From: Bugula neritina | Lineage: Eukaryota > Bryozoa > Gymnolaemata > Cheilostomatida > Bugulidae | NCBI GenBank assembly: GCA_964035545.1 | Contig: CAXIUT010000246.1 | Span: 1 to 49,203, forward strand | Length of the DNA stretch: 49,203 bases | Direction: 5' to 3' | In this document: one piece after another, positions 21,225 through 49,099 of the stretch | Position numbering within the stretch: the stretch's first letter is position 1 | Layout: each line of letters starts with the position of its first letter | Translations under genes and position numbers: made by a program | The notes under the pieces: generated by a model | Seen by the model: the letters and a program-made list of their open reading frames with translations, nothing else | Told to the model about the DNA's origin: nothing | Database searches by the model: none

Positions 21225-22462
21225 TCATTGATAACTTTCAGCACAAAGTCTTTTAAAAGCTACAGATTGGAAAAATGTAGAAACAACTCTTGAATCTTTA
21301 TTAAATAGAGTTTCAGTCTTTATTCCAGCCTATCTTACCCAAGCCTAATCTTCATTCAAACGACCATAATCCCTAATCGGAATAATTCCCTCTGCATTTG
21401 ATTCAATAACTGGAGCACGATAACTTTTTTCATCTTGAATAATAAACTTCTTATTTGTCTTTCTATTTGACAATCTATTTTGCTTGTAAAAAATATTATA
21501 ATCTTCAGCACTTATTAGACTGTTTTGATGTTCTGTTGAAGGATGAGTCAAAAGCAATAAATGCTGACTAGGAGGCCAAAAGTTACTTGTCATATTTGGC
21601 ATCTCACCTCCATACTGTACTTCTACTGATTTTTTATCCATGTGTTTCCACATATCATTGTGATATCCATCACCTGTAATCTTTAATTTCTTCAAAGTAT
21701 TTTCTGAAACAAAATTCGATACAATAGCCTACCAACCCCATCGAATAACTGTAGGCATTGATAAAATATAACTAGCAAAAAGTCTTCCTCTATAGGCATT
21801 GCTCGTAAAAGAAAGAATTTTCATTATTACCTTAATTAACATAAAAAATACCCCTCTTAAGCTAAAACTAGCAGCTTCCAAATTCATAATCAAGACATAA
21901 TTTTAAACCTGACCTTCAATTAACAACTACTTTATCATAAATTCCATTATTGTGACTAATGACTTCTGAATCGACTCGTTTTAATCATCATCTGAATCGA
22001 ATTTACCAATATCCACTACTAATATAGGTCGATATTGACTATCTCTTCCACAAAAATAGAATGCTCCTGAGCTCTGAGTTATTATATATTTTACTAACAT
22101 CTTCTATGTCTGCAAATCCATTTTCAGTGGAAAACTAGTTGATCTCCATTTCGTTGTCTCAGTCATCGAATCAATAGTTTTTGATGTTTTGAACTTATTT
22201 GCCTGTAAAAATCTTAGCTTATTAGGTATATCGAACCATGGATCAATACTGATTCTTTTCACCTACATTTGATCATCTAATTTCGCAAGTGCTTTCTCTT
22301 AAAAATGATTAAATTGCTGTCCTCCTTAGAATATTTTCCGCCATTGCTTTTCTCCTTCACCAATTATGATTTACTAGCCTGTATTTGATCGAATCTACCT
22401 TGGGGAAAGTACAAAAATGCCTCATCTGGAATATACTTCCATTCTTCAACGTAATCCTTCAT
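21225..22462 (-). CDS. CRAL-TRIO (Sec14-like) lipid-transfer protein
   Basis: 405 aa after one 20-nt intron (22355-22374), which restores the frame exactly. A short N-terminal helical region (QWRKIFEGGQQFNHFEEK; NKLRFLQANKFKTSKT), the CRAL-TRIO-N type, precedes the lipid-binding domain (~110-280). Seen there: GRDSQYRPILVVDIGKF, VENYVLIMNLEAAS, AYRGRLFASYILSMP, and the closing YGGEMPNM in place of the usual YGG/FGG motif. Sec14-like proteins move phosphatidylinositol, phosphatidylcholine or other hydrophobic ligands between membranes. The ~110-residue C-terminal extension (from SNFWPPSQ) is not a known domain. Ligand unknown. Confidence 0.88.
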
Positions 22463-22908
22463 AGTTTTATAAGTTATAAATAGAATTTAGCTATAGCATA
22501 TGTAAATGAATCATTATTATAGAAACAATAAGAGGTTCTCTCATTTTTACGTTCCATTTAGAACACGAATTTTTTGCATAAACTTATGAGAAATAATGAT
22601 ATAAACATCAACAAAGACTTATTTGTTCCTCATATTTCTTAAATTTTTATTTTTAAAGGTTTTTTTAGACAGAATTAACCTTTTGCGGAGATGAGATGCA
22701 TCATCATGCAAAGTGAGATTCGTCTTAAAGACAGTGAGGAAGCACTTTTGGCTGAAAGAGATCAGGTACAGTGTATTGAGTAGAAGAAGGAGTCGAGAGA
22801 GGTGTGTTTGAGGTTTAAAAAAGATTATAGGATTGATTGTTGAAGGTTTATCCCATAATATAATGAGATTCGGTTTATATTTATAGATGTAATTTTTGAG
22901 TTTCTATC
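22463..22908. other. Intergenic region with a 50-codon ORF
   Basis: Mostly A+T-rich sequence between the CRAL-TRIO start and U3. One unusually G+C-rich plus-strand ORF (22691-22843, 50 aa, MRCIIMQSEIRLKDSEE...) is Glu/Arg-rich and ends CLRFKKDYRIDC. It could be a tiny gene, or part of one. No homology recognised. The U3 promoter should lie in 22844-22908; only a TATATTTATAG-like stretch is seen there. Confidence 0.3.
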
Positions 22909-23112
22909 AAGACTGTACTCTTACAGGGTCATTTCTATAGTCTTCTCTTATTATTTGCATCAGCAAATAAGACAACATTTCAATCTAGGATGATAAAAAG
23001 AACGTTCATATTCATAACGGGGAAATCGGAAAAACTACTTCGGTAGTTCTTTCCAGGATGATCATCCTTTGCAGTTTTCTGCATTGTGAGAATATGAACG
23101 AGTATGACTAGA
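22909..23112 (+). ncRNA. U3 snoRNA
   Basis: The 5' end, AAGACTGTACTCTTACAGGG followed by TCATTTCTATAGT, matches the highly conserved U3 5' domain (GAC box and box A), which base-pairs with pre-rRNA to direct 18S processing. The 3' domain folds well: an 11-bp closing stem (23003-23013 with 23090-23100), a UUCG-capped hairpin (23033-23048) and a GCAG-UUUU-CUGC hairpin (23071-23082). GAUGAU-type box C/B elements lie near 22988 and 23058. The 3' box D would be AUGA rather than CUGA at about 23104. The ends are approximate. Lies in its own gap between protein genes. Confidence 0.87.
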
Positions 23113-23185
23113 TTCCCTACTTAAACAAAAAAAATAACTTATTTATTCACTTATTACTCTTATTATCATTCTTAATAGAACTAGA

Positions 23186-23404
23186 TCAAGATTAGGCTAA
23201 TTTTTTAGTTGCCTATAAGATAGTTTTGAATTCTTCTGATGAAAAAAGAGTCTTTATTGAAGCATATCCCTTCACAAAAGATTCTTCTTTTCTGATAACC
23301 ACATCTCTTAGTTTATTTTCAGGAATATCCATAACAACTGGAGACTGTCTAATCATTTCAGATTCTCTTTGTTCATTTTTATTATTCTGTTGGTTTTATG
23401 GCAT
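23186..23404 (-). CDS. Small hypothetical protein, 72 aa
   Basis: Intact minus-strand frame from ATG 23404 (MPENQQNNKNEQRESE) to TGA 23186-23188. A polar N-terminus is followed by a helical, charged region (VIRKEESFVKGYASIKTLF; EEFKTILEATKKLAES). It uses TAA/TAG as Glu in plausible places. No family recognised. The short length leaves some doubt. Confidence 0.5.
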
Positions 23405-23558
23405 TCTTCAAATAAACAAATAATTACAGTTAACTATTAATGCTAAGGGAAATATTTAATATGAACAATAGATTATTTTTTATAAAAATAAATAAATACT
23501 CTTGATAAATATAATCATATTGTTTAATTCTTCTTTTACAATAATATCTTAAAAAACA

Positions 23559-25067
23559 ATGAAATAAAAAGTTGAAGAGAACCTATATTTTGTTGATAAA
23601 ATCCTTAAAATCTAATAGGTCAATGGAGAACTCAATGCTATCGTAAAATGGGAAAATTACAACTATAGAGAAACTACTAAATAACCTGTCTAGGTTCTAA
23701 AACTTAATCCTGCAATCCGTGAATAAGTCTAAAAGCACTAAGCTTTATTTAAATCAAGGCGCTAAACCAAAAAATTCGACTAACAAATAAATCTAGAAAC
23801 ATAAATGTTGAATTAAAGAGTTTTTGGAAAGAAACTATCATCCAAATATGATAGATATGAAGTATATCCTAAAGATGAAAACAAAAAGAAAAGTACAGAA
23901 CCAAGCAAATAGAAGAAAAATATATAACAAACAAAGAAATAGATTGAAAAAATAACTCCAGATCATCTTATTCACTGTCATTTGGTAGCAAAACAAAGAA
24001 TCAAGAAAAAAATTGCTTAAGGATTAGGATCAATGTCAAAATAAGACTACTTTCAACTTTCAGATTTATGTCAAAAAGCCTATGAATAAAGTAAAAAGAA
24101 AAAAATGTCTTCTAATCCAACAGAACCTGATATTCAGCAAGTTAAAGGGATCATAAAAGAGTAAAATAAGTATCTATTTTTACTTTTAATTCAAAATAAA
24201 ATGATAGTTTCCTGTCCAACTTTGAAAATGCTTGAATTTGCTCCAACTCATCTTTACAATTACCTTGTTGAGCTCTTAAAAAATGTTAGATTTATGATGA
24301 AAGATGATATATTAAGATAAGAATAAAGAATAAAAAAGAGAAAAATAAAAAATAGAGCAATAGACTCAGTCGTTAAGGCCTTTAATATGAATAAAAAAAT
24401 ACAAGCATAAAAGAATGCAGTTCACTTTGGTCTAGATTAAGAAGATACTTTGAATAATATTCGATAATATAAAGAACAATTTTTATAAAGGAACATTAAT
24501 TTTGATGATCAAAAATCTCGATCATCAGGACTTTCAAAAAGTTTATCAAAAGATTCTTCAAAACAAAGAGAAAAATCAAACAAAAAAGTTAATTAAGTAG
24601 GAGTAAAGAAAGTTTCTGAAGTTGAATAATTATATTTAGCTATCAAAAGTGACCTAGATAGACTTCAAAGAGGAAAAAAATAATAAAAATAAGCATTATA
24701 ACAAAAATAAAAAATAACTAAAAAAATTATAAATAAGCAACAAAAAGTAAATAAAAAGAATATTTAGAAAAATTCTAGCAATTTAGGATAAAAAAATAGT
24801 TCAAGTAAAAGCAAATCTTGTTCTAAAAGTCCTATTTCTTCTTATCATGAATCAAGTCATAAGAAATCTCAGAAATCTTAAGAAAACATAAATGATTCAT
24901 CAGTGCGAAGATCTCAGAGAATTGTGTCCAGGAAAAAGTCATAAAATCTAATGGAGAGTTAAAGTGAATTGAGTAGTTCAGATGAGCCTGATTAATCAAG
25001 CAAATTCAAAAGAAAAAGAACTCCATAAGAATATTTCCCGAAAAAACGTTTAAAAGACGACAATTGA
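23559..25067 (+). CDS. Chromodomain protein
   Basis: Intact 502-aa frame. Residues ~8-60 form a chromodomain: YFVDKILKIEEVNGELNAIV, then KWENYNYRETTKEPVEVL. In the usual W-E-P of this fold the Trp is replaced and the Glu is encoded by TAA. The first aromatic-cage residue is a Tyr/Phe, so methyl-lysine binding is plausible but not assured. The rest is Lys/Glu/Ser-rich; residues ~215-270 form a hydrophobic helical block (YLFLLLIQNKM; LYNYLVELLKNVRFMM) that might be a dimerisation or chromoshadow-like region. The C-terminus has Ser/Arg/Lys stretches and a KKR-type nuclear signal. Likely a chromatin protein. Confidence 0.82.
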
Positions 25068-25132
25068 TGATAAATATGTATTTACTTAAAAGTATAATTA
25101 CTAGAAAATTATTTTATTTATAATGAAATCTA

Positions 25133-26518
25133 TCAAAAATCTCCATCTTAACTAAACTAACTTATATAATATAAACTTAATACTTAACCATAATAATTAA
25201 TGACACTAGCCATCCTATTCGATGAATATATAATTTTAAGAATTCTATCGCTGACATGATTACAACTATTGCATTATAAGTATCTTAAATTTCTTAAAGT
25301 TTTGTTATTTTGTGTATTAATTTTTAATAAATCAGCTGTTTTAGGCTATAACATATCATATATTTCATCAGGCTGATATTATTTTAGTCTATTTAACTTT
25401 TTAAAATCAAACCTTAGTTGATCATAGAGTTTTTAATTAAAAGCTTATTTAGGTATGTTATACTACTCAAAAGCCTCATCACTCAAAGATTTAATTCCAT
25501 TCAAAACCAATCTTTCCAGAGAAGTACACTTTGATACAATACTTTTGACCGAATAGTTTGTAACTTAGTTACACCAACTAATATTCAAACACTTTAAATT
25601 AACTGCATATTATGATAGTGTCAATAAATGCTCATCTCTCAGATGTAAGGCTTCTGTAAGATCTAATTTTTATAGATTTTTAGATGATATTTTATTAATG
25701 ATATCATTTAACTCTAAATCGTAACACTTAGTTAAAGTAAGTTAAACGACTTATTTGCTCATACTTGAAGATATAGCTTATGGATTTATATATTTTTACA
25801 TATGAAAGAGACGTAATCTCTTTATATGAGGCAAGTTTCTCGTTATTTTTGTTAGTAACTCTTCAGAGCATTACTCAACATCTATCTAGAGTTATGTTAG
25901 CTGATTCAAGTTTTCATCTACTAGAATTTTTAGTAAAACTTAATAGTTAATTTGATATGGCTTTAGAATTAGACTTTACAAAGGTTCTTTTATACATTTA
26001 TCAAGGGTTTCTGCCCTAAAATCTAAAGAATCAACATTTATTTCAATATTCTTCACTTTTGTGCAGCTTTTCAACATTGCTTAAAGAAGTTAATCAGAAG
26101 TAGATTGAGAATGGAATATAATAGAGTGAATATTTGGACAAGAATGAGCTACAGCAAGATGTAAAAGACTACTACTACATCTTATTTAGATCTTTTATAC
26201 ATAATTTCTAGGTTTTAAAAATAATCCAAGTAATTACTTTTCTTCTTCATGCTATTCATCTGTTAAAAAGATAGATATCTCTTTTGGTTCGATTATTTAA
26301 ATATACTTACAAATCCATTTGATATACTAAGGCCATTTTACAGGCTTCATATAATCTTGTATAAGAAATTGATGAAACGTATTAGGTCGATAAATGATAT
26401 TTCTTAATAGACCACATGTAGAGGCTAGTGATATTTTATCTGAAGTTGTTAGATATTTTGTAAGGTTAGGAAACGATCTGCCTAGATCAAAGGGAAATTT
26501 TTATTCTTTACTCTCCAT
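25133..26518 (-). CDS. F-box/leucine-rich-repeat protein
   Basis: Intact, intron-free 461-aa frame from ATG 26518 (MESKEEKFPFDLG). Residues ~14-60 resemble an F-box (FPNLTKYLTTSDKISLAS, then CGLLRNIIY). From ~110 to 360 come cysteine-type LRRs (HLAVAHSCPNIHSIIF; SKNLEKLDLTEALHLRDEHL; NLKCLNISWCNEVTNYSV; TSLERLVLNGIKSLSDEA), the AMN1/FBXL style with L-x-L-x-x-C. Such proteins are substrate receptors of SCF ubiquitin ligases. The F-box is weak, so an F-box-less LRR protein is the alternative. Confidence 0.82.
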
Positions 26519-26622
26519 ATAAGATTCAAAATTATAGAATCATTTGCTTTCAAAAATAATCAATTTATATCAATTTATTAAAAATATGAAAAAAAGTTAT
26601 TTTTGATGTCCTTTATTTTAAG

Positions 26623-27114
26623 ATGCTTTCTTACATTTTTGAAGAGAGTTATAATAATTATTTATATAGCATGCCTCATCTAAAACATAAAAGTCCATGT
26701 ATGACAGGTGGTAGGTTTTCTTTATTCAATTTGCTCTCGCGCCAAATTGCCCTCCTTACGATCAACCACTCAGATGATATCGTCAAAGAGTTGATGATTT
26801 CTTAAACTTTCAAAATAAATCCCCAAAAACAAACTCAATGGAGACAACTCTCTGAGAAAAGAGCCTAGATTCCAATCATAGCCAGATAAAAGATCCAAAA
26901 CCTGAGCTTTGCAAGAGACTAAGACAATGATTTCTAGGAATCTGGATAAAAGAATTAATCTTTTATTCATGTTTTACAACTAGAGGATGAGTATGATGTC
27001 AATGATATTGAAACAGTTCAATCAGAATGCATAAGTAGACAAAGAAAATATTCTGATTTTAGCATTGATGGCAGCATATACTCTATTTCATCTGAAACAG
27101 CTTCAATCAAATGA
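26623..27114 (+). CDS. Hypothetical protein, 163 aa
   Basis: Intact frame from ATG 26623 (MLSYIFEESYNNYLYSM) to TGA 27112-27114. It has a GGRFSLFNLLSRQIALL stretch, then an acidic, Ser-rich C-terminus (DEYDVNDIETVQSEC; DGSIYSISSETASIK) with possible phosphosites. Several TAA/TAG are read as Glu. No domain recognised. Its stop is 61 nt from that of the convergent CAF1 gene. Confidence 0.65.
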
Positions 27115-27175
27115 TTATATGAGCTTCTATATTGAAAAATAACTTTATATATAGCAATACAATCGATCAAAGACC

Positions 27176-28330
27176 TCAATTTCTTTTATTGAACCTAGAA
27201 TGTTGATAGTTAGATGAATATCCATAATAACTCCCAGAAGAAGAACTGTTATTTACATAATAAGTTGAATTATTTGAAGAAATTCCGTTATTTCCTGAAG
27301 ATTATCCATAATCACTACTTTGAAGGTATTGATAGAGTGGACCTTTCTGATAATAGCCATGTGGAGGAACTATACTTTGTACATTTCCGAAACTATGGAA
27401 TTTTTGTGGCTGTGCTATAGGAATACCATAAATAGAATTCAAATTTTCTTCGAAAGGTTGACTTCCAAGTAAATTTCTCAATTGAAAATATGTTTTGATA
27501 GTAAGCAAGCTATCACTACCTGCTTGATGTTTTGGTCCTACTCTATAACACTAAATAAATCAAAGAATACTCCTATTTTTTGAGCTATTGAATTCAAGCC
27601 ACCTTATTTCAGATGATCTTATTTACTAACTATTTATTTAAGATCGTAAATGTTTGGAAAGTAAATGTGAATAGATTTGTAGAAGTCTTATGGCTTTTGA
27701 GGAAGCGGCTAATCTCTAAGAAGTTTGAGTAAATAGCCAAAATCATAGCATCCATGGAAAACAATCCATTTAAGAGTTTTATTCAAAATAAGACCTGAAT
27801 AAAAGTAAAAAAACCTGAGGAAATAAAGGCCTAAGCAAATCTTGAAGGAGGGATACCATGTTGTTTTAAACTATCAAAGGGAATACCTGCTTATTGAAGC
27901 AAAGCTATTGATTCTGGAACTAAATTTTCTGAATGAAGATCAAAAGCAAGATGAAATTGCCAAGTAGCCGGGTAAGGTTGTTTGCCTGATGAGTCTGCTA
28001 TAGTTAGTCCTATTTGTATTAATTTAGTTTTTTCAATATTGTGCCAGATGAGCTGATAATCTATTTCTTCAAGAGCATAGTATGGAGCAATACTGTTCCT
28101 TTTAACAAAGTTTCCTGGAAATTCAGTATCCTAATTGTATAATTATGTACTAATGCAATAACAGAGTAGTTTTTAGTCAATGCAGAAATGGTCTATAGGT
28201 GCTGATCGAGGTTGTGAGCCCATACATCGATGATAGGAGTATTAAAAGAAGAATTTGAAGTAAATTAAAGGTCTTAATCTCCTCCATCTTCAGTATCAGC
28301 ATTGCTTCGACTGTGATTTTTATTTCTCAT
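27176..28330 (-). CDS. CAF1: CAF1/CNOT7-type deadenylase (POP2)
   Basis: 364 aa once three 20-nt introns are removed (28131-28150, 27795-27814, 27551-27570); the sum is an exact number of codons. DEDD-family exonuclease signatures are present: LDTEFPG (~61), [23 protein letters not shown] (~180), [11 protein letters not shown] and the closing [14 protein letters not shown] (~245). As the catalytic subunit of CCR4-NOT it shortens mRNA poly(A) tails. The N-terminal [10 protein letters not shown] is also typical. An extra C-terminal tail of ~90 residues, rich in Asn/Ser/Tyr/Gly, resembles a prion-like region. All catalytic Asp/Glu are retained. Confidence 0.95.
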
Positions 28331-28711
28331 AGGTCGTTGTATTACTTTATTAATATAAAAAACCAAGACCTATATTATCAAAGATCAATACTTCAACTGC
28401 AAAGCTTTATTTCTTATTAATATTAAAAATTAGACGATGCTTAAATTTACTCCATAACATGAACTCAATCTATCACCCACCTACGATCATAAACTGCACA
28501 CTCAACTCACCATCTTCAACCCTTCCTCAAGACCAGCTCCCTTTAAAGTACCTTTCCTTTCATTTAGGTCAAATCAACTCGTCCATCTCTATTCCACATC
28601 GAACCTCCAACCGGTATCCTCTTACCTCATCAACAAACCCAAGTTTAAATCTTCACTAGAAATACAAACTCACCACAACTCGCCCACTAAATTTCATATC
28701 ACAATAAATTT
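28331..28711. other. Intergenic region with a C-rich ORF
   Basis: A+T-rich up to about 28455, then conspicuously C-rich on the plus strand. A plus ORF (28459-28755, 98 aa, MNSIYHPPTIINCTLNSP...) is rich in Ser, Pro, Thr and Leu and overlaps the start of the next gene in another frame. It may be the 5' part of that gene with a frameshift, or chance. No homology. Confidence 0.3.
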
Positions 28712-29254
28712 ATGATAGAATTCGCATTGTTAGAAAGAGTACCAGAATCTCTTGAAGAAGGACTCAGACAAATAAACTAAGATAACCGTCAAGAACATCG
28801 CCTATTTTTAGCTAGTGTTAGTAAAAATGATGCAAATGATGCCCGAGATGATCGATCTGGCATATCCAATCAATACACCTACAGAACAGTCCAAAACTAA
28901 GATACTCATATGGTAAGGAGTCGTTTTAACAGATAAAATACAGATACTATGAACAGTGATCAAAAATTTGACTTTCTAACTAGAGAAATCGATAGATTAG
29001 AAAAATAAAAGTCAGAACTAATGATGACATCAAAACCAAAACAATCTAAAAATATACTGAAAATAATAATTATAGTTATTATCGCAATTGTCTTAGGAAA
29101 TTTGGCAGGACGTTCCTTAGGTCTGGGATAAAAGAAAGTAAAGCATCATCAGAAGAAAGATACCTCATGGTCTTCCTATCTCGGTATTGATAAATGGTTT
29201 TAAAAGTCTCCTCCTCCTCAATAATAAAATGCCTGGTGGTAATTTTGGAAATGA
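28712..29254 (+). CDS. Single-pass membrane protein, 180 aa
   Basis: From ATG 28712 (MIEFALLERVPESLEEG) to TGA 29252-29254. The order is an acidic helical N-terminus, a coiled coil (DFLTREIDRLEKEKSELM), a strong membrane segment at ~110-130 (ILKIIIIVIIAIVLGNLAG) and a basic then Trp/Pro-rich tail. The coiled-coil-plus-TM order recalls SNARE-like or tether proteins, but no family motif is visible. If one A is removed near 29228, the frame instead continues EEMPGGNFGNDIDIIS... with no TGA up to the telomeric array, so the C-terminus is uncertain. The array begins 73 nt after the stop. Confidence 0.65.
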
Positions 29255-29327
29255 TATTGATATTATCTCTAATATATCTGATTTAATTTCTTAATTTATC
29301 TTATTTCTTTATAATTAGAAATAATAT

Positions 29328-29410
29328 GGGGTTGGGGTTGGGGTTGGGGTTGGGGTTGGGGTTGGGGTTGGGGTTGGGGTTGGGGTTGGGGTTGGGGTTG
29401 GGGTTGGGGG
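29328..29410. repeat. Internal telomeric array 1 (GGGGTT)
   Basis: About 14 copies of GGGGTT on the plus strand, ending in a G5 run. The polarity is that of a right chromosome end. It begins 73 nt after the stop of the preceding gene, similar to the true right end. The sequence after it starts inside an open coiled-coil frame without a start codon. Confidence 0.97.
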
Positions 29411-30057
29411 AGAACTTGAAGAACAAACAAACTTGATTATTAATGATCTTTAACAAGAAGTCAAATAAACTAAAAGAAAAAATGATCAGCAAAACAGATA
29501 AATAAATGAGCTAAAAGTAAATAATGAATAAATTAGTAAAAAAGTAAATCTTTTAAAAGTTCTATTCAAAGAGAAGTAGATTTAGCCCAAAAATAAAGAA
29601 ATTAGTTCAAAACTAAATTCATATAATTTGAAAAGAAAGTTATTTAGCTATAAATAGTAAATTAAAGCATCTAATCATAAGTTTAAGTTATAATATTTAG
29701 CTAAGAGCAACAAAATATCGTCTTTCTTAATACGAATCTCAAATATAAAAAACAATGGAATAATTGGCTTTAGCTCAACTCGAACAAGAATAAACCAAAT
29801 AAAGTAATAAATAGTCAGTAGCCAGGTTAAAAAATCAATTGAAATAAGCATAGGAATAACTCTTTGCTATGCATAGAATAAAACAAAAATAAACATAGAT
29901 ACCTAAATAATAAGTTCCTATCCAACCATAAGTCTAATCGAAAAAATAAAAATAACTCTTCAGATAAACTATGAAAGGAATAAGAACTTATATTTAAAGT
30001 CTAGACACCAAAAAAGCATAAGCCAGACAAATGATTCTTAAAATATCCTCTCAATGA
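29411..30057 (+). CDS. Coiled-coil protein, 5' end missing at array
   Basis: Open from the edge of array 1 (GELEEQTNLIINDLEQEV...) to TGA 30055-30057. The product is almost entirely coiled coil (LSEYESQIEKTMEELALAQ; ARLKNQLKEAEEELFAM). A frame shift near 29700 can be explained by a 19-nt GT-AG intron (GTTATA...CTAAG) or an indel. No start codon lies in frame after the array. Reading back through the array gives only Gly-Val repeats and then the tail of the preceding gene, so the gene is most likely truncated at its 5' side. No family recognised. Confidence 0.65.
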
Positions 30058-30100
30058 ATTAAATACATTGCTATTTTACAAAATCATTGAATTATCTTAG

Positions 30101-30177
30101 TTGGGGTTGGGGTTGGGGTTGGGGTTGGGGTTGGGGTTGGGGTTGGGGTTGGGGTTGGGGTTGGGGTTGGGGTTGGG
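30101..30177. repeat. Internal telomeric array 2 (GGGGTT)
   Basis: About 13 copies of GGGGTT, same orientation as array 1, ending GGGATTC. It starts 43 nt after the stop of the partial coiled-coil gene. On its right side the minus-strand kelch-like gene is cut in mid-frame: its last codons run straight into Asn-Pro repeats encoded by the array's C-rich strand. Confidence 0.97.
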
Positions 30178-32638
30178 ATTCAAACGTTCAACTTGATATT
30201 CCTGTTCAGTTATCGGTACTCCAGCTTTTAGAATCAGTTACATAGCAACTATATGATCATTAGTAGTTGAAGATAGATTCAAAATACCAACAAACATTTT
30301 TTTTTGATATTTCATCACTATTTTATATGATCCGTTATCTTACTCAAGAGAATCTTCATAAATATCTATTATGCTTTTAGAACTATTGATCTCTTCATTT
30401 TGCATTCCAATCTATAAACATAATTTAAAATTAACTACAACTTGAGATTTTAATTTCCATTGAGGAACAACTTACAAAGGAATCAATTATTCAACTACAA
30501 CTAAGACTGTTTCAAAATTAACAGCAGGTCTATTCAAAGTCAAAAAGTTAAGACTCATAACTGTATTTTTATTGAAAAAGAAAAATGATTGTTTGATTTA
30601 TTAATTAAGAGTTTATTTAGTTTTGATGATAGATTGTATGAGTTATGAACTATCTGATGAACTTTTTATTTTTTATTTGAATAAAAATCCTCGATTACTG
30701 TTTTTAAAAATATATTAAGGAAAATATATTTATGTATTAAATTGACTTCCATGAATCATCAATATTTACTATCCTTCAAGAACCTTCAAAACATATTGAT
30801 GTAACTTTTTATCAAAACAATATATTTATCTCAATTTGAGATATTATTTTTATTTCAAATTTTTAATATCATGCTGAAATATCACATCTGATTTACCTAA
30901 AATAGTCAATCCCTCAGTATATAGTGGATGGTATATTAAAGCATATGTTTGAGTTAGAAAAGTATCAATCGCTAATAGATTTTATTCAGATAAAGAAACC
31001 ATTGCTCCTTATAAATTCACGAATTTTTAAGCTTGTTATTGATCAAGTGAAAAAGACAACTTTAAAGATATTGGGTTGTTTTATTAACCTAATAAAGCTA
31101 CAGAAGATTGATGTATTCCTCTATAAGAACTAATTTTCAAATATAATTTTTAGTTTTACCTGATGTTGAGAGGAACCTACCCTTCTTTTTAAGTTTATCC
31201 AACTCCTATTTCATATTTCTTTGAAAAAGTCATTCTCTTATCAAGATCATTATATTTAAGAGTAAATGCCAAAAATGCTAATGAATTAGGATTAGATACA
31301 GTTTAAGCGGTATTAATATGTCTGTTTTGAGCTGTTCTAATTGTAGGTAAATAAGAATCTCCCTTAGTCCTCACTGGACCTCTAAGATTTACTGGCACTA
31401 AGTTATTTAATTTCAATTTTTTAATACTAACTATTAAACCTTTCTCGAAAACTATCATATATCCTTGATTGCTAAGAATAGAATAAGGACGAATATATTT
31501 TTGACCAACACCTCCTACAAGAAATATTTGTTAATATCCAGAATCATGTCCTTTTTGGTAAACTTAATATTAAACTCTAGGTCTAATTAAATCATTATTA
31601 ATACTTTTAACAAAAGAATTTCCAAATGAAAAGTAAAATTATTTAGGAATTGTCTATAATGTAATAGAATTTGAAAGTATATTTAATACAGATACATCTG
31701 TCTGAAAGTCTACATAATTTTTAAATCCATTATAAAAACCTCCAAATATATATATAGCTTCACTGTTGTTTGGCTGATAGCAAGTACAACCTGATCTAGG
31801 ATATATTTTGGCCTAATTACTTGGAATAACTGAAGATAGATAAAAAGGTTGATCTCTAGGTGCTATAAATATTAATGAAGTGATCAAAGGTTCATACATT
31901 AGACCTGCAAAAGAAGCAAGAAGAGCAGCTCTTTGATCATAGAGTTTAGGCCAAAAGAGAATAACCCATTTTTAGGTTTAACAAAAATTATATTAACAAA
32001 AATGTTGATGAGGACCCATTTCATATTATTTTTGAATAAGACTAATCTAATGTAGAACAACTCTTCCCTAACAACTATTTTATAGCTTACTATCGATAAA
32101 TCCAACATAGTTACAAAGAGTTGGACTGTTGTTGTCAGGTAAATGATTCATAAGAAAAATAGTAGAAGACGGATAATAACGTTTATTGCTCAATAAAATT
32201 TGAGAATTAGGATTGATACTTAGAGGTACACTTCCAGGTTTAGATTTTAATTAAAATTACAATGCAATAAGGTCATAGTTATTAAGCTATTCGTTATTAA
32301 ATTGAGGAAGTCTTGTAATATATTTAATAGTCTACTTTTATTTTTACTTTCCAACTCTAAGAGAATACTTTTCAATAAAAGAATTCCAATGTTCCTAGAA
32401 ATACAAACCATATCTACTTTTAATTAAACTAACTATTGAACAAAACTGATGCTGATCTGACTAAAATATTTCATTTATATTATTTAATAGAGATCTATAA
32501 TACAGAGATCCATGAATAGATTTAAAAGATTATTACTAAAGTAGTTTTTTAATATTTTTGATCTATTTCGATATTATAAAAATCTATTCCTATATTTTTA
32601 AACAGTAGGGTGATTTTGACTTATTTTACGTAATAATT
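30178..32638 (-). CDS. Kelch-like beta-propeller protein, 3' end truncated
   Basis: A single minus-strand frame is open for about 2.4 kb (over 800 codons) without TGA. Kelch-type segments are visible: PRSGCTCYQPNNSEAIYIFG, EQIFLVGGVGQKY and KISSYRGIHQSSVALLG. Other blocks (WVILFWPKLYDQRAALLASF) are not typical kelch. The right (5') end is unresolved: the frame opens after a TGA near 32640 without an early ATG, but an ATG at 32647 can be joined by a 40-nt GT-AG intron. The left (3') end is lost at the telomeric array, so the C-terminus is missing. Cellular role unknown. Confidence 0.75.
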
Positions 32639-32639
32639 T

Positions 32640-34191
32640 ATCAGCATATTAAAGTATTTTATAATTCTAATAATTTTGTTAAATATCTTAAAAACAGCTT
32701 TATTCCCTATTCAAACTATAAGTCCCAGATCCTATTTTCAAAAACATCGATATTCTATGCAAAAGATCCACATCTATTCCTAGTTGTTGATTATCCAAAT
32801 GACCATTTTTATGATTTTATTAATTTTATTGATATTTAGTCAAATGACAATAAAACATCAATTTAAAATTAGTTATCATTGCCAATTCCTTCAACATCAC
32901 TTAGAAATGTTTTTACTGTATATTAATTGTATTAGAATAAGATATAATAACCAACGATGGATTGAATTCTTTTATCTGGTGAAACAACATTTCTTTCATC
33001 ATAAATAAAAATAAAACTCGAATAGTAAGGCGATATATCAGATAAATTTAGTTTTTAACTTAAGTATTTAGAAAATAAAGGAAATACTAATAATCTTTTA
33101 TAATATTATAAGAGTTATTTCTATGATTTATCTTTTCCTTTGTATATTTTAGATTATTATCTTATTTTTTATTATGTCAAATCACCAGTAAGAAACAGTT
33201 CAGACAAAGAAGATGAATTATCAATTGGAAAGGATATATATTGGAGATATCTGCTTAGATATTAGCTAGATAGATATTTAAAGGATTTTATTAACCATCT
33301 AAATTGATAAAAGTTATTTTAGAACAGTTATAGTGTCCAATCTAATCAAATATACTTTATTTTTTATAATTATCTGAAGAAGTAGGACTTTTTATTTGAT
33401 TTTTAATACAACAATATGCACTGATCAACAAAGGATGAATAAAGTTATCAATTTATTAACTCGAGGTGATAGATGTATAAATGATGAGCCAATCCAACAC
33501 TACTGTATTCCTCTCATCTGTTTCTACATTATTTGAACATATCTAGTCAACTAGCCTACTTACTAAGGATAATTATATTAATTTGTTTGATTATTTATTC
33601 TAAAAAGTTAAGAAATAAGTTCTATGCCATATTGAAATGATTTTGTTAGTTATTATTTAATTTATTTTGTTTTTTATAGTTGTTTATTTATCTAGTTATT
33701 TGGACAAGATATATTATTACTTATTGAACCAAATTTCTTACTTTTTAATATTCAATTTGACCATTTTCTATAGTTGCCTGCCCAATAGTTCTCAATTTTT
33801 AAATTTTTAATAATTTCATCTTAAATATTCCTTCATCTTCGTGTTCATTTTTATACTTCTACAAAAATCTCATCATTAGATGACTTGAAGAGTTATATTT
33901 AGATTTTTTTGAATTATTTTCTTAAGAATTCTAACAAATAGCCACTAGATCCAGTTTAGTAAAAACATTACAAAGAGTTTAGTTCGATCATTAGCAAGTA
34001 CAGTCAAAGAATGTTCAGGTTTGGGATGTTCTGCTTGAAGAATATTTTGAGGATGAAGAAGCTATTGTTTTTTATCTTTGAAGCATATGAGGAGTTTTTT
34101 GGATAGTAAAAGATTAGATCTTTTTATCAAGACTATCTAGCATGTAGGTACTATTTTCAAAGATTATTCTTTATGCCATTCTGATGTCTGA
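32640..34191 (+). CDS. Large unassigned helical protein, frames interrupted
   Basis: Protein-like plus-strand segments continue through shifted frames: DFDLFYVIIYQHIKVFYN; LEYYKSYFYDLSFPLYIL; FLSSVSTLFEHIESTSLL; VQVWDVLLEEYFEDEEA; and LKHMRSFLDSKRLDLF before TGA 34189-34191. The helical, HEAT-repeat-like look with aromatic and Leu-rich blocks suggests an alpha-solenoid, but no family is recognised. At least four 1-nt shifts or undetected introns occur. Its 5' end overlaps the uncertain 5' end of the divergent kelch-like gene by a few bases. Confidence 0.45.
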
Positions 34192-34317
34192 ATAGTAATC
34201 ATTTTTCATTATTTTTAAATTATAAATCTAGTTTTAAATGTTGACAATAGATATGATATTCAATATATATTAGATTTAATGATATATTTATCATAAGTGC
34301 TTCAAAATATGAAGAAA

Positions 34318-36925
34318 TCACCATTAATCGAACTACTTGGGTCTGATTTCTCTTTTATCGATGGCAATTTATTGTTTTATTTCTGGAGTTCTATTGGTTC
34401 CTTTCTTCATCTCCTTTATAAAAAACTTTTCAACCTCCCGATATTCTGACAAACACACCTCAATCACCTTTAACTTCTTTTTATCAATTTATGGAGTTTT
34501 AACTAAAATAATAATAGTATTACATTAACTTTAGGGGATAATTCTATGACAAAAACTAGTTTTTTTTCCAATATGATCATGTTCATAAGAAATTAATTAA
34601 ATCTAGAATGTCTTCTTATCACTTCTTTTTTATTGGTATACTCATTCTCTTTGTTTATCATTTTTATTTTATCAGGCATCCATAGTTCAGAATTACACTT
34701 CTATGATTTTAACTCATCAATCTCAAATTCTATTTTACTTATTGATAAGTCTTTGTAATCCTTGTCTCTCATTTAACAAACACTTTTATTAAAAGATAAT
34801 TATTCTATTAAAGTTGTAGATTTTTGATGTTTTTGAAGATTTTTCTGTCCTCTCATATAACTTTATCTTCATCTTTTTATATAAATGCTTATCAAAAGAA
34901 GGATGTAACTTTGAAATGTTTTTAAGGTGATAATCTCGTTGTTCAATGGAAAGTATTTTTATAATATCTGCATATCTAGTAAGAATTTAGTTATTGCTTA
35001 TAGTTGTTATTTGCTGTGGTATTGATCCTTTTTCTTCAGGAAGAGCATCTTTATAAATTCTAAAAGCTAAAAGATGATGAAAAACATATCTCACGTTATA
35101 GCTCCAATGAAGAAATACATTATTAAATGCTGATCCCAAAAAGTACATTGATATATTTCTTCTAAAATCGATATTAAACAAAGTAAAATTCGTATATATT
35201 AGTGTCAAAGCAGCTGTCACAGCCATAGCAGAATCTCCTTAAATAATAATCTTAAGAGCCTTAAAGAAAATTCCATAATTAAAGTTGATAGGAAGGTGTC
35301 CTTTAAGATAATTTCCAACCGACTTGAATATCATTCCCAATATATCAAATAAACGAATAACTGTAGTTGTATCATAAGAATTTACTTTTGATATTAGAAT
35401 TTTAATCATAGGATTTATCAATCTCACATTTTTAAGAAGTTTCATAGTTGATTCTACCAATGCATCCGGATATTCAAGAATAGGTCTTTATTGTAATTCA
35501 AGTAAAATTCCTTTGACAAGACGATTATAACCTGGGAAGTTATTCCATTGATAATCTTGAGAGTTAGGAAGATGACTTTCAACATATGTTACCCAATATT
35601 TAATGAAATAAAAGAAAGCAAGACCTCTCTTAATAAATCTATCTTTCCATGAACTTTTGACTAATATCTAGTTTAAAGTTATATTATTTCCTTCAATCTC
35701 ATCATTTCTTTTAAGAAATTTGTAAAAATGATACTACCAATCGAAAATTTCCATAAATGTATTATTCTTATCTCTTTCTTCTGTTTAACTAATATCTTCA
35801 TGTAAATTGAAATCAATTCCTCTCCACTAATTTATTTCAGGATCACTTTACTTCAAAATCAATCGAACAATCTACTTCTGAACTATGGGATTCTAAAATA
35901 AGCATATGCACTAAAGACTTCAGCAAAAGTACGTTAATATTCAGATCCTTTATGATCAATCGAATTAAGAGCAAGATCCAAAAGATTAATCAAGAATACT
36001 TATACATAATAGCAACTTCTTCCTTGAAAAGAAGAAATTAATCAAAATTATTTTTCTTGATTTGATTTTTATGTTTTTAACTGAAACCCATATGATAAAG
36101 AGAAAACTATGATCTTTTAATTAAAGAAATAAGAATTAAAAAGTTAAGATCTTTAATAATTGGGTCCTATATTTCAATATATTGAGTTATTTTTATACCT
36201 AACTATATTAAGATTTTCTGTCCTTCAATAAGTTATCTTTCTGATAGATATTGATACAAAAAAGAAGGACTATGAGAGGATTTTTCTAACAATTTATATA
36301 TTTCAACCAATTAATCTTCAATAGATTCTTTTAATTTTCTATTATCTTCTCTAGAATCTTAGTCAATATGATGTTTATTAAGAGCTATCATATTTTGTTC
36401 AATAGAATGACTAATATCAAGAAGATCATGAAGCTAAGGACATTTATCTGTAGTTTGAGTTTCCTAAACTCCAAAAATAGGGTTGCTTTTAAGTATACCA
36501 ACTTAAGTTTGCACACATATTTGATACTGTTTAAAATAAGATTGATTTACAATAGTAAAGTGAAAACAACCAGTTCCAAATACTTTTCCACTATGCTCAA
36601 GCTTTTATGTCATTTTTATATTTCTTGATTAGTATTATTTTCCTCCCTTACGAAATACCTTAGCATCAGTTCCCAATAATTTATACACTGAGACATAACT
36701 ATCCACGAATAGCTACATGTTGGTTGATAATTAACTTTGATATTTCCAAACCAATACTTGTAAATATATATTTTGTAACTATGAAGCGACAACTTTTGTT
36801 TAAATATTAGGTAATTCACCTCCATCTTGAGTCCATTTAAGCTATCCGCCTTCTTAAATCTATTTAGTCGATTATCTTTTACTCTTTTTTCGAACCAAAC
36901 CACGTTCACTATCTAATTTCAACAT
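34318..36925 (-). CDS. DUF1765-like protein
   Basis: From ATG 36925 (MLKLDSERGLVRKKSKR). A conserved core between ~35900 and 34980 reads: FLINLLDLALNSIDHKGSEY; YPDALVESTMKLLKNVRLIN, then PMIKILISKVNSYDTTTVIR; and FLHWSYNVRYVFHHLLAFRI. This order (Leu-rich block, 'NVRLxNP', 'YDTT', 'FLHWS..VR..FHHLL') matches my recollection of DUF1765, a eukaryotic family of unknown function. Single-base shifts occur near 36040, 35880, 34760 and 34490. With them the gene runs to TGA 34318-34320; without them it could stop at 34723. The C-terminal part is charged and helical. Family call moderate; function unknown. Confidence 0.65.
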
Positions 36926-37640
36926 TAATCAAGTTATTTTTAATTTTATGGTTAATTTTGAAGCAAAACAACTGCAGGATAACTCGATTCGCTTTATACT
37001 GTTGATCCAGATACACCATTCTAAGTATTAAATATCTTACGATGGTTTTAATAGAAAAAGCAAAACTATTATCCAGGAATGTTTCTTAGTTAAAAATAAT
37101 TCTGATTCTAAACTCTATATTTTTAGATTTATTATCTGAGACATTTTGATCTCAAAACTTATTCTTCCTGTCTTCTCTTAAGGAAAATGCAACGCAAAGT
37201 CTTGATGAAAAGGACTCGGTTGCTAATCATAAATAAATTAATTCTTATATCAGCTACATGTATTTCATGTTAGTTGAGTATTGAAACCTCCAAAAACTGT
37301 TTTCTTAGTTCGTACTCAGTCATTTGGAAGTCAAAAGTCTCACTTATTTTCCACTAAATAATTTAATAAATACCATGATTGTTCCTCGATCTCCTCTGTT
37401 TTTTCTCAGAAAGAGCAAAACTTTAACCTTCCCTCACCCGAAAATAGGCCAGTAGCACTTGCCTACATATTTTTAGAAAGTTACATATGGATATTGTTTC
37501 AATTTGACGTTTGCCAAATTAGCATGAAATAACAATTTAGGCAGATTCTTGTCTTTAAGAGCCTCAGTACCCACTGGCTAGCATTCAAAAGAAAAAGGCT
37601 TTCGATTAGTGGACTTATCACCTGTTGCACATTGACCCAT
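36919..37640 (-). CDS. Unassigned protein with MGQC acylation motif
   Basis: Opens at ATG 37640 with MGQCATGDKS, a good N-myristoylation/palmitoylation sequence. It is followed by FSFECEPVGTEALKDKNLP and KYVGKCYWPIFG, then, after shifts near 37430 and 37400, a long open frame rich in Glu/Arg (FLKRRQEEEVLRSKCLREE). That frame ends at TGA 36919-36921. The stop overlaps the start codon of the next gene (sequence ATGTTGA). Possibly a membrane-anchored signalling protein; no domain recognised. Confidence 0.55.
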
Positions 37641-37800
37641 AACTATTCAAAATTAGAATTCTAGACAAAAAGTGTCAGAAAAGAATGTCATAATATAACC
37701 AACAACAATATTCTCTCTTTATCAAAAAGAATTATTTCCTATTTCTCATCAAATAAAATAAATCTATAAATACATCTCAAGAACATCAAATTCATAGTTA

Positions 37801-38928
37801 TCATTTTGAAAACGTTATATCTTCTAGGATTTGGTAACCATGTCTCTCATTATTGAGGTATTTATTGAGTTGTTCTTTTTCTTTAAACAAAACTGAACCT
37901 AAAAATCCTAAATTATCATATCTATACCAACTGCATTTACCGATATTTCATTAAAAGCTTTTTCTTTTCTACGAGGAACCATTAAAATAAACTACTCACA
38001 ACCAATCAAATTGTAAGGAGTGGCCTAGTCTTCTTCTTTTTCAATCAATAAACGATACAACTTTTCATAAGCCTTATGACTTCTTTCTTTATAGAGAGAA
38101 AGTTTGTTATGAAGTTTATCAAAGTATTATTTTCCCTTATCACTTTAGCTTTCACTATATTGACCACTTTATCCAACAATAACAATGCCATGTTTAAAGT
38201 TAAAAGGAGGATACTAAATAACTTGTGTATCTTCAAGATTTAAGTTCTGAAAATCTTTATCATAACTTCTTTTAACGACAAAACTCAAGGACATTCTTGA
38301 AAATAGGTAAATCTCTTCCTTCATTAGGAAATACCTGAATATGTTTATGCTTCTGAGAAGCACCAGCTGTAGGTCCACTATTGAAAAAAATATAAGCCTT
38401 TATTCGCTTTAAAAGCATAGATTGATTGCTTAAAATCATCTTTGGTCAAAGGTATTGATTGAAGTTAGAATTACTTAGTTGTAACTAAAAGATGACTCTC
38501 AAAGACATTGTATTTATTAAAAAGTAGTCGATGTGTCTTGCCAAGATCCTGGATAAAAATCCCCTTAATATTAAAGGTAATACTTCATCAAAAGGTGGTT
38601 TAAAAGGATTTCTCACAGCTTCATTAGTACTTCTTTATTTAACTTAAGTTTGAAACCAAGTGTACATCATAGCTATTTATCTACTTTCCATTTGATGTTG
38701 TTCTTAAATAATAAGTGGTTAAAGGCTTTTTTCACTATTTTATAAACTTTTTCTGATATTTGCGGCAATATTATGAATGTGTTGAGTGGAAGGACTTCTA
38801 TGTAAATGAAGATATCTCAGGAATAAATAAGAACCTCCAACAAAAGTAGCCACTCCAATTGTAGTTAAGACCTCTTTGTTTCTAAAAAAATTAAAAACTT
38901 TTTCTTTGTACTCTTAGAACGAAGACAT
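37801..38928 (-). CDS. Ap4A phosphorylase (ATP adenylyltransferase)
   Basis: The core reads THRLLFNKYNVFESHLLVTT, FFNSGPTAGASQKHKHIQVF (HIT-like H-x-H-x-Q active-site motif, from ~38400) and later ATPYNLIGCEEFILMVPRR and ISVNAVGFLGSVLFKEKEQL. This is the diagnostic order of fungal APA1/2-type Ap4A phosphorylases, which split diadenosine tetraphosphate into ATP and ADP. A 20-nt intron at 37908-37927 is required. Single-base shifts lie at T-runs near 38570 and 38390, and more in the middle part. Unusually, a hydrophobic membrane-like segment (TTIGVATFVGGSYLFLRYLH) precedes the enzyme domain at residues ~22-41. Start ATG 38928. Confidence 0.85.
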
Positions 38929-39039
38929 AATTAAAAATTAATTTATAAATAAATAATCAATTCTTTTATAGTTAGATCAATAGAAACTAATTATCAATAA
39001 GTTTGATTTGTTTTAATTGATTTATACAACTTATTTAAA

Positions 39040-41017
39040 ATGGCACCCAAACCTGCCCCAAAATTAACAAAGAAACAATTGGCTGAACTTGCAAAAGAGG
39101 AAGCAAAAAAAAAAGAGGAGTTATAAAAACAAAGAAGAGAAGAAGAGGAAGCTAGACAAAGAGAACAATAGCGATTAGATTAGATCGAACGTTAAAAGAA
39201 AACTTAATAATAAAGAGTAAGAATTGTCCTTGAAAAAGAACAATATAGAGACTACATACTAGGTAAAAAGAAATAAGAATAAACTGCTCTTCAAAAACAT
39301 ACCTAAGAACAAAATTGGGATCATCTTACTCTTGAATATCATAAAGACTATGATACTTCAGGTCCCAAACTATCAACATTCATAAATGCATTCCAAGAAG
39401 AGCCATATGAAGGACCTTAAAAGACTCTTAAAAGTTTATAAGAAGCATAAATCTATGTCAAAAATATTGGATATAGGATGCTTGAAAGAAGAAGTGAACA
39501 TGATGAAGCTAGATAGAAGTATTATTAAAAATCTATCAAGGAAATTAGGAAAATATAGCTTGAGAAATTATAAAGAGTGATGATATAGATGGCAAACACA
39601 GCATAAGAAATGGAAGATAAGAATAGTGAGATAAGTAAAAAAGGATAACCAAACAAAAAGGTATAAGGACAAAAAATACTAGAATATAAACACTGCATGA
39701 ATCTTTTCTCTAAAATAGGAATGTTCCTTAATTCTCCTACAACAAAAAATCTTAATAAATTCAGACCCATTGAAATAAAAGAATTTGGACTCAATACAGA
39801 AATACCTTCCAAATGGATGAACATGAATACTATTGCTAAATTCGAATGGATCAACTACAATCCTTATTTCTAGGATTAATCAAGCAAGTTTAATATCATT
39901 GGTGGTGTTTACATTCTTTAGTTCTTTGATTTAGTTATGGGATCAAAGAAGATTAATAACATTGTGCTCAAAAAGAATTACAAAGGACCTTAAATTCTTA
40001 TGAAACACTCTCCTAATCTTATCAAATAACCTTTCAATGTTACTTACCAAATCCCAAAATATGTATTTCTTCATACTTTCGATCAAGAATCAATAAAACT
40101 AGCACAATATGATACCACCACTTCTAAATGGTCACCTCTTCCCAGCGATACTCTGATCGAATACGATACTAAATAAAAAAAAGCTACTTGCAGAATATAT
40201 AAACCAGAACCTATTGCTTACATTCAAGATAGATGTACTGACTATCCTTATGTTGCCTGGTAACTAAGATGTGTTGAAGAAGGAGTTGCTCATCTGGATA
40301 TTTAATTAAAACGTTGTCATCTAAAAAAAAGTGATAGTTAATAATAATAAAACAACAACACTCTTATGTAGCATTTAATCTATTTAGACTTAAATTTTAA
40401 ATCACTTCTCATACAGTTAAACTTATAACTTCTTAAAGTTATCCCTAACTTTAAGATTTATAATCAGGTAACTGGACTCCATCATCCATCCTCTACGAAC
40501 TTTCAGAAAGAGGAATTCATCTACTACCTATCAACTAAGACTACTAAGAAGCTAAATTACCTGTTAAAGATAGAGAAGCCGAATAAAATGCCATTAGAGA
40601 TATTGCATATGCGATAGAATCTTTTTATATTCGAAGCTAAGTCAACGATTCTAGTGATATTAAAGTGAAGATAAGAGAAAATTTGTAATATTAGAGAGTT
40701 TTTTTGGAAGATCAAGAAAAAGATTGGAAATATATTCGTTGGCTTTCAAATAATAGATGTTAAGTAACCAACAGAAATATTGAAAAAAGACACCTAAACC
40801 TCTAAGTATAAATTTTAACATTAAGATTTTATTATAGACTTATGATTTCTGCCTTCCACAATGTCTTACTCGAATGAAATTCAATAAAAATTATTTATTC
40901 AAGAGAAACATCATGCAAATGCTTAAACTGACTAGAATTCTGAGCTTTACAACTTGTGAAGAAAGACATAGTCAACTTAGAAAAATCCTCAGAGAAAAAT
41001 AGCTTGTATCATATTGA
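39040..41017 (+). CDS. DNAI7: DNAI7/CASC1-like axonemal dynein-associated protein
   Basis: Starts MAPKPAPKLTKKQLAEL, then a long Glu/Arg coiled coil (EEARQREQERLDEIERE) as in CASC1/DNAI7 (CFAP94). Conserved blocks follow: IIGGVYILEFFDL, a beta-rich segment with YPYVAWELRC (the Glu encoded by TAA), GNWTPSSILYELSERGIHLL, RDIAYAIESFYIRS, and the C-terminal LKLTRILSFTTCEERHSQLR. DNAI7 is linked to assembly or function of ciliary inner dynein arms. One frame is open from 39040 to ~40488. Two single-base shifts (near 40488 and 40873) are needed to reach TGA 41015-41017; otherwise the protein stops at 40875-40877. Divergent from the Ap4A gene with 111 nt between. Confidence 0.85.
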
Positions 41018-41243
41018 TTATTCATCAGTATCAATCAAAATTTATTCATTAATAACTATTTTACAATGATATCAACTCAATATTAATCATCAAATATTAA
41101 TATTATTTCGAGGTATTAGTTATTTTTCACCTATTATTGACCATTTATATAAATCAATGATAATATTTATCATTTTAATCTTTGATAGCTTTAATTCATA
41201 CTATTTATTGAAGTTAAAGCTATTCGATATAATATATATTTGA

Positions 41244-43143
41244 ATGGACGAAGGGAAACAAACTGATAAAGAGGCAAATATCGACCAAGCCATCATCTAA
41301 GAAAAGATTACCAAAACTAACGGATAAGTAGTCATCAAAAAGTACTCTAAAGGAAAAGCTCTTGGAAGAGGAGGCTTTGCTAAGTGTTATGAAGTGACCA
41401 ACTTATAAACCAAAAAAATATCTGCAGCCAAAATAATTGCTAAAAGTTCTCTGAATCGTTCAAGAGCTAAACAGAAAGTAATAATCATGTCATTCAGTTG
41501 ATTACTTAAATTAAAATTCACAAATCCCTAAGTCATCATACCATCGTTAAGTTCTAACATGTGTTTTAAGACCATGAAAATGTCTATATTTTGTTGGAAA
41601 TCTGTTCCAATCAGACTCTGAATGAACTAATCAAGAGACGTAAGCGTCTAACAGAAATGGAAGTCATGTATTACTTACATCAAATCACTAACTCTTTAGT
41701 CTATCTTCATCAAAACAAAGTCATCCATAGAGAGTATTGCTTCTTTAACTTAGTTTGAAACTTGGAAATCTCTTCCTTAACGATAATATGGAAATCAAAC
41801 TTGGAGATTTTGGGCTAGCAACAAGACTATAATATAATGAAGAAAAAAAGAAGACTATCTGTGGAACTCCTAACTATATCGCTCCCTAAATTCTTTAAGG
41901 AAAAGGACATTCTTACGAAGTTGATATCTGGTCAGTTGGTGTTATCATGTACTTATAACTCTATTTAGTTATACTCAATTGATAGGTAAACCTCCATTTT
42001 AAACTCCTGAAGTTAAAACTACATACAAAAAAATCAAAGCTTGTAGTTATAGTTTCCCTTAACATGTTACTATTTCTGAAAATGCAAGAAATCTTATAAG
42101 CAAAATATTAGTTTTAGACCCTTCGAAAAGACCAAGTCTTGAAGACATTCTCAGTGATCCTTTTATGAGTGATCCTATTCCAAAAACAATCCCAAGAAGT
42201 ACTTTAGCCTGTCCTCCGGCTAAAAACTTTACTGACCAATACACTAAAACATCTCAAGGAACTCAACCAGCAGCCAGTCAACAACTATCTCAAAAACCAA
42301 GTACAAGCAATTTTGAAAAGGTAAGAAACAAAGAAGTTTAAAAAGAATTTAAACCTTTAAGCAAAGAAGTTGCTACTTCTAAGGTACCTTAAAACTTTGG
42401 ATCAAGTGGAAGTAATTTTAGATCATCTTCTAAAGATATAAAACAACCAAGCAATAAAAACATTCCTTTTAAAGCTTAGCCAACATCTAGTAAAAAAGGT
42501 ATATATCTCATAATATATAGAAAAAGGAACAGTTCATTCTGAAATTCATGTTAAGAAATGGGTAGATTACTCAACTAAATACGGATTAGGTTATTTACTT
42601 TCAGATGGCTCAACAGGTGTTTATTTCAATGACTCAACAAAGATAATAGTAGACCGCAATGGATAAAACTTCTAATACATCTAAAAGAAGCAAGGAGACA
42701 AAGCTGACACAATAACTCCATATAAAATGAGTGAATATCCATCAGAAAGATAGCTCCAAAAGAAAGTGACCTTACTTCAACACTTCAGAAACTATCTATA
42801 TGCTGATTCCAAGATATAATTCGATAAATAAACAGCTCCTGATAGCAGCTATTGCTATGTTAAAAAATGGATGAAAACCAAACATGCCATCATGTTCAGA
42901 TTAAGCAATAAAATTGTCCAAGTCAACTTCACAGATAAAACCTAAATTATCTTGTCCAGCTAACAAAAACTAGTTACCTACATCAACTTGAAAGGATAAC
43001 GTAGTTAGTATCCTCTAGCTACTGCTCTTGATAGCAAAAACGCAGAAATGGCCAAAAGACTTAAATATACAAAAGAAATTCTCACTCACATGCTCAATGG
43101 TACTAATGTACCCACCAACACCGGAGCATAAGATCTCAACTGA
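41244..43143 (+). CDS. PLK: Polo-like kinase (PLK)
   Basis: 605 aa after four introns (41478-41497, 41734-41753, 41949-41968, each 20 nt; 42499-42520, 22 nt), giving an exact number of codons. Kinase domain ~35-285: [10 protein letters not shown] (P-loop), SAAKII (Lys), [22 protein letters not shown] catalytic loop restored only by intron 2, [20 protein letters not shown] with the APE Glu encoded by TAA. The Ser/Lys-rich linker precedes two polo boxes ([19 protein letters not shown] at ~410; [17 protein letters not shown] at ~510). PLKs control mitosis, cytokinesis and centriole/basal-body duplication. Catalytic residues are intact. Confidence 0.97.
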
Positions 43144-43207
43144 TCCTCATTCATTAAATTTATTCAATTATTAAAAATATCAATCAAATAATATCATTAT
43201 AATACAA

Positions 43208-43651: not shown

Positions 43652-43669
43652 ATAAGATTCTTAATACTA

Positions 43670-45043: not shown

Positions 45044-45212
45044 ATTTTAAATTTGCTCCTGGTCGATCAAAGATACCCTCAAGTGAGCTTCATTGGTCTT
45101 CAAATCTTTAACAAACTTCAACTTTCCTCGATTATATGGATACACTTGCCACATTTTTATTTTATATAACTTTAATACTAATAATAATAATGAAATTACA
45201 ATTTACATCAGT

Positions 45213-48277: not shown

Positions 48278-48407
48278 CTTTATAATATCAATAAACCAAC
48301 CCGATAAAAACCTTTTTATTACTTTTTTTGTTAATTGTTAATTGATAATTGTCAGGTTTAAATACTGTTTTGAGATTATATTCAACACTTTATATCATAT
48401 ATTTATC
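48278..48407. promoter_or_regulatory. Bidirectional intergenic promoter region
   Basis: 130 nt between the divergent starts of the tubulin-like gene and the CDGSH gene; A+T-rich, with no recognised element. Confidence 0.4.
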
Positions 48408-48994: not shown

Positions 48995-49099
48995 TCCAAT
49001 ATCAATCTAATAGATCATCAAGTATCCTTAATAGATCATACCTATCATAATCAACTATTATTCATATTTATTAATTTATATATTTTAAATAAAATTGAA

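Follow-up and report, generated by a model that had tools for sequence, protein, structure and literature searches.

The window, which is the whole 49,203-nt stretch of DNA analyzed here and comprises contig C235 of a 215.8-Mb assembly in 295 contigs, is very probably a chimeric contig, derived from chimeric long reads that the assembler kept (a probability of roughly 0.86). Telomeric arrays lie within it at two places, and the joins that they mark are most likely an artefact of a known kind and not a natural rearrangement. As listed below, four GGGGTT arrays were located in the window with Tandem Repeats Finder, two terminal and two internal, and there are no N bases anywhere in the window.

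1 to 74, minus strand: left terminal telomere, (CCCCAA)n, starting with CCCAA, 74 nt (Tandem Repeats Finder)
1 to 29409, no strand assigned: block A, a complete-looking macronuclear chromosome of ~29.4 kb, telomere to telomere
28712 to 29254, plus strand: last gene listed for block A, encoding 180 aa (table 6), with its stop 72 nt ahead of array 1
29327 to 29409, plus strand: internal array 1, 83 nt, right-end polarity, 13.8 copies, 100% matches
29410 to 30099, plus strand: block B, a 0.7-kb right-end piece with a coiled-coil-like frame without a start
30100 to 30177, plus strand: internal array 2, 78 nt, right-end polarity, 13.0 copies, 100% matches
30178 to 49203, no strand assigned: block C, a 19-kb right-end piece whose first frame, on the minus strand, is cut at 30178
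49100 to 49203, plus strand: right terminal telomere, ending in TTGGG, 104 nt (Tandem Repeats Finder)

The original prediction, made from the sequence, had placed two G4T2 arrays of right-end polarity inside the window, and both are present as perfect repeats; the length of 83 nt given for the first was exact, whereas the second measures 78 nt and not 77 nt. The junction after array 1 can be read as TTGGG|GGAGAAC or as TTGGGG|GAGAAC, and that after array 2 reads TTGGG|ATTC. Reading frames were followed with the ciliate code of table 6, in which TAA and TAG encode glutamine. A stop codon had been expected about 45 to 75 nt ahead of each array; the distances found are the 72 nt of block A and 42 nt in block B, where the second frame reaches TGA at 30055-30057 (positions counted by hand). 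The pieces that follow the arrays begin inside genes, again as proposed, given that block B begins in frame with no start codon ("ELEEQTN...") and that the minus-strand frame of block C stays open to 30178 with no stop. Both joins in the window therefore interrupt reading frames (2/2 following pieces begin within frames). The plausible reading of block B shifts frame once, which points to a short intron or a frameshift within it. A 386-aa open reading frame that spans both arrays was discarded as meaningless, since GGGGTT contains no TGA in any frame. Overall, the structural reading of a complete ~29.4-kb chromosome followed by two right-end pieces with broken left edges is supported.

The "kelch-like" name proposed for the cut minus-strand frame found no support, as this frame matched no Pfam family at E ≤ 0.01 and none of 5706 candidates in a homologue search at E ≤ 0.001. 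Pfam matches at E ≤ 0.01 were obtained for 5 of 10 proteins, and three of these five (replication factor A, tubulin and DUF1765) scored above the curated cut-off. The tubulin match is a 418-aa Tubulin/FtsZ GTPase domain protein encoded at 47021-48277 on the minus strand (Pfam E 9e-27). A U3 small nucleolar RNA gene was also found at 22909-23112 on the plus strand (81.6 bits, full model length), and its interval falls within a 734-aa reading frame of the ORF list. A scan against a viral collection returned 42 loci, none of which is used as evidence here.

Next to the interrupted frames stands the copy number of the pieces. The sole match of block B in the assembly is block B itself, and the same holds for the start of block C (30178-33178); for these stretches, the proposed search of other contigs for intact versions of the cut pieces gave matches to the window only. 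For a 7.3-kb part of block A (22000-29320) there is no second full copy in the assembly, and four short weak matches with 72-80% identity all lie in C138. With its arrays masked, the window showed no match at E ≤ 1e-6, either to itself or to a sample of 10 other ciliate contigs or parts of contigs. The tested pieces are single copy, and intact overlapping versions of the tested stretches are therefore absent from the assembly, which would suit contigs that rest on few molecules.

Internal arrays are not peculiar to this contig. A 28-mer of the repeat matched the assembly 5716 times in forward and 3010 times in reverse orientation, counts that include one match from C6 as well as irregular tracts in other places. 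Three array-start patterns, each of which counts an array once and which together cover three of the possible array starts, detected 342+163, 77+52 and 37+26 arrays (forward+reverse), a total of 697; as a control, the same patterns read backwards gave 20 and 5, 2 and 1, and 8 and 1. Since 295 contigs have 590 ends, at least 107 of these arrays, including some at scaffold gaps, must be internal to contigs. The places listed for these patterns numbered 263 in 134 contigs (at least 100, at least 100 and 63 per pattern), and consisted of 68 minus arrays no more than 150 bases from a contig start, 29 further minus arrays at other positions and 166 plus arrays, a figure that includes those at right contig ends; in C51, two minus arrays follow one another near the contig start. 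Six ciliate contigs were picked by number alone, and a join was present within the first 10 kb in three of them (C150, C200 and C290, with none in the first 10 kb of C60, C100 and C250), while most other joins were chosen from listings for being internal to contigs. In total, 28 contigs had at least one join read, with up to three joins per contig (C10), and in C16, C18 and C41 the piece before the array is only 1, 2, 63 or ~180 nt long.

The far edges of the internal arrays were compared with natural chromosome ends. The register sample holds 36 joins from 27 contigs; it was drawn from 42 rows scored as internal by script, leaving out two irregular arrays reaching a contig end or gap (L080 and L095), a 23-nt minus stretch (L089) and three contig ends (L137, L144 and L148). 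The perfect period ended exactly at TTGGG in 25 of the 36 joins, where 6 would be expected by chance (1/6 each; p = 3e-12). Ten others fit a TTGGG edge if the next piece opens with G/T or if the final unit is a GGGTT variant, and one ends at TTGG (C20 at 30706). Two more joins, in C40 and C90, read TTGGG by eye. The same edge characterizes telomeric contig ends: after removal of a cut stretch (L130) from 29 rows, TTGGG was found in 26 of 28, or in 26 of 31 once three irregular ends are added (C24 left, C90 right and C100 right). One of these irregular ends, C24:1-40 in a ciliate contig, mixes both telomere units (CCCCAAACCCCAAACCCCAACCCC...ACCA). Scaffold-gap ends carry TTGGG in 4/4 cases by script and in 7/8 when those read by eye are added (C35, C39 and the second of C15 with TTGGG; C51 with TTGG). 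As joins and contig ends have this register in common, the internal arrays are true chromosome tips, and the edge that they share shows in which register double-stranded chromosome ends of this ciliate terminate. Recombination within arrays, germline arrays, and graph exits from a collapsed repeat were considered and rejected, as none would hold one register. A germline interstitial telomere array was further rejected since the far edges hold the tip register and no further copy of the three window segments was found in the assembly.

The DNA beyond the arrays has the composition of chromosome interiors. Over the 100 bases past the arrays, the mean GC was 0.293 (range 0.15-0.43; 20 joins), against 0.301 for random interior sequence (p 0.62), whereas the 100 bases on the natural side of 27 arrays had a mean GC of 0.216. 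Each following piece therefore starts at a random break, and the idea that it is a natural left end minus its telomere was rejected, as a rule, by composition. Other routes to the joins were also considered. A shared joining element or adapter was dismissed because nothing was common to the joins printed, and restriction-site joining, as in Hi-C, because the bases just past the arrays do not form a single site (both by eye). T/A-overhang ligation was dismissed because the base following TTGGG is not always T. Amplification hairpins were dismissed because the 11 rows of the masked comparison outside C11 are all direct repeats, with no inverted repeat among them. The C11 rows look like a tandem array among the matches listed (at least 60); the second C11 piece opens within 2.2 kb of tandem repeats spaced ~29 bases apart (C11:5311-7553). 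At C14:18551, the piece past the array opens, by eye, like the start of a serine-type tRNA gene (AGACACTGTGGCCGAGCGG...).

The order of the pieces is one-way in short contigs. In ciliate contigs of known length below 50 kb, 26 internal arrays were found in 18 of 21 contigs, all of them plus; the 21 comprise the window and 20 others, most of which were covered in part through some array starts. The three contigs without an internal array are C60, C100 and C250, and a 23-nt minus stretch in C290 and an array in C49 at 22618, which is possibly terminal, were left out of the count. Minus arrays away from the contig start occur in 18 of the 134 listed contigs, and the 11 of known size are all at least 54 kb. 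Short contigs thus carry a complete chromosome first and right-end pieces after it, with a broken left end in C16 and C100. If whole contigs had been turned around during scaffolding, the complete chromosome should show a clean tip at a gap at its other end, and this held in C24, C35, C39 and C51; in C40 and C90 the array inspected, which may belong to a different gap-free contig from the minus array, runs on into other DNA, and the C212 stretch is all array.

Taken together, the recurrence of the joins, the random-looking breaks at which the partners begin and the publication of this artefact for other ciliates lead us to prefer a chimeric or assembly origin. Of the three causes offered by the original prediction, a chimera and an assembly join are thus the ones that fit best, and the macronuclear rearrangement fits poorly. 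In the chimera that we favor, a natural macronuclear tip, flush at TTGGG, would have become attached, outside the cell, to a second ciliate fragment at a randomly broken end, and the natural end of this second fragment would then have been joined to a third piece. This could happen during library making or amplification, either by end-to-end ligation or when a polymerase runs off the tip and jumps template, or alternatively during reading, if consecutive molecules are left unsplit. We propose that such a read may survive assembly because a tip is a dead end, so that nothing in the assembly contradicts it.

Precedents come from two ciliates. For Balantidium ctenopharyngodoni, passages of one report describe embedded telomeres in ~48% of corrected Nanopore reads and in ~3% of contigs, which PCR revealed as chimeras or artefacts (PMC10978948). 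For Oxytricha trifallax, part of another report describes the removal of chimeric corrected PacBio reads "characterized by embedded telomeric sequences" (PMC6937825). As far as these passages go, the likeness lies in nonterminal arrays that connect parts of distinct small chromosomes at the level of reads and, for Balantidium, of some contigs too. Set against what these passages describe, the present joins differ in that the DNA on their far side starts at a random break inside a chromosome and that, in short contigs, all arrays point the same way. The telomeric units differ as well, with GGGGTT in the present ciliate, CCCCAAT in Balantidium and GGGGTTTT in Oxytricha. In addition, a section of the protocol of a large genome program indicates that size selection would remove ciliate chromosomes of 5 to 20 kb (PMC12548527); concatenated molecules would probably outlast this step better than single ones.

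Several observations argue against a chimera. The ciliate-like GC on the far side is one, since random ligation should often catch DNA of other organisms; the GC of those organisms is hardly known here, and the assembler may have dropped joins to their DNA. Another is the single polarity in short contigs, which is not expected from double-stranded chimeras alone; a one-way order would result from strand-specific reads or from an assembler walking from dead ends, and polymerase extension at 3' ends was also considered. Free ligation further predicts tip-to-tip joins (TTGGG|CCCAA), and none was seen among the 36 joins. Facing tips were read across 200-N gaps in C15 and C58, and these are scaffold joins. 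Finally, size-selected fragments would not give pieces of 1-2 nt plus an array.

Among the alternatives to a chimeric contig, fusion in vivo, in which uncapped tips would be end-joined to broken chromosomes in the macronucleus or a dying one to give real concatemers, is unlikely. Joining within one nucleus would account for the single natural-end register and for the ciliate-like GC on the far side. However, the joins are frequent, both of those in the window cut frames, and a working nucleus with joins at such density is hard to imagine. The absence of intact overlapping versions of the tested pieces also means that the fused form is not one variant among many copies, and tip-to-tip fusions, as noted, numbered 0 of 36. 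That tip-to-break joining was repeated in vivo, as an end-joining wave in ageing or degrading macronuclei, is more doubtful still. If such joins were true in cells, they would mean telomere failure at a very large scale.

A pure software join, in which the assembler or scaffolder set unrelated contigs together without a chimeric read, is quite improbable. Scaffold joins do exist in the assembly, at the 200-N gaps of C15 and C58, and a walk from a dead end would fit the one-way order of pieces that short contigs show; nevertheless, the window is without N, whereas the scaffold joins seen carry N, and a gap-free join normally requires spanning sequence. Least probable of all is alternative telomere addition, by which a shorter form ending at 29409 or 30177 would have been merged with a longer one: internal addition sites are known for ciliates, according to part of one report (PMC6937825), and would likewise place arrays at sites interior to some other molecule, but here block A closes with a stop and an AT-rich tail, block B opens in mid-frame, the DNA past the array does not evidently continue the locus, and an array in a continuous locus would not give subtelomeric composition on one side and random-interior composition on the other.

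With the joins best read as chimeric, their biological weight is small, since a laboratory or computational origin is most likely for them. They matter for the use of the assembly: unrelated chromosome pieces are run together in no fewer than 28 ciliate contigs, and judging from the array counts the true figure is probably much higher. Wherever an internal GGGGTT array intervenes, gene neighborhoods, chromosome sizes and cut genes should therefore be distrusted.

The ciliate contigs most likely represent a companion organism within the genome project of another species. Tetrahymena also uses the table 6 code, and its macronuclear chromosomes are much larger than the ~5-30 kb that chromosomes seem to measure here, where terminal arrays are 74 and 104 nt long. 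Its macronuclear telomeres have the same G4T2 unit, and there are 181 macronuclear chromosomes per haploid genome, as given in parts of one source (PMC13368176). The telomere of the 16-Mb contig C6 differs, being (TTTGGGG)n, and its first 9890 positions (C6:1-9890) consist of ~9.9 kb of (CCCCAAA)n in which CCCCAA units are scattered. The CCCCAAA/T3G4 unit forms the inner part of Tetrahymena germline telomeres, according to a portion of the same source (PMC13368176), and a literature search for a T3G4 telomere gave only unrelated work among the matches listed. The CCCCAAA tract of C6 prompted the idea that the large contigs represent the germline genome of the ciliate, which was rejected because the three window segments have no match in the large contigs. 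Contig C13, judged from its GC of 0.496 and from gene products guessed by eye, looks bacterial.
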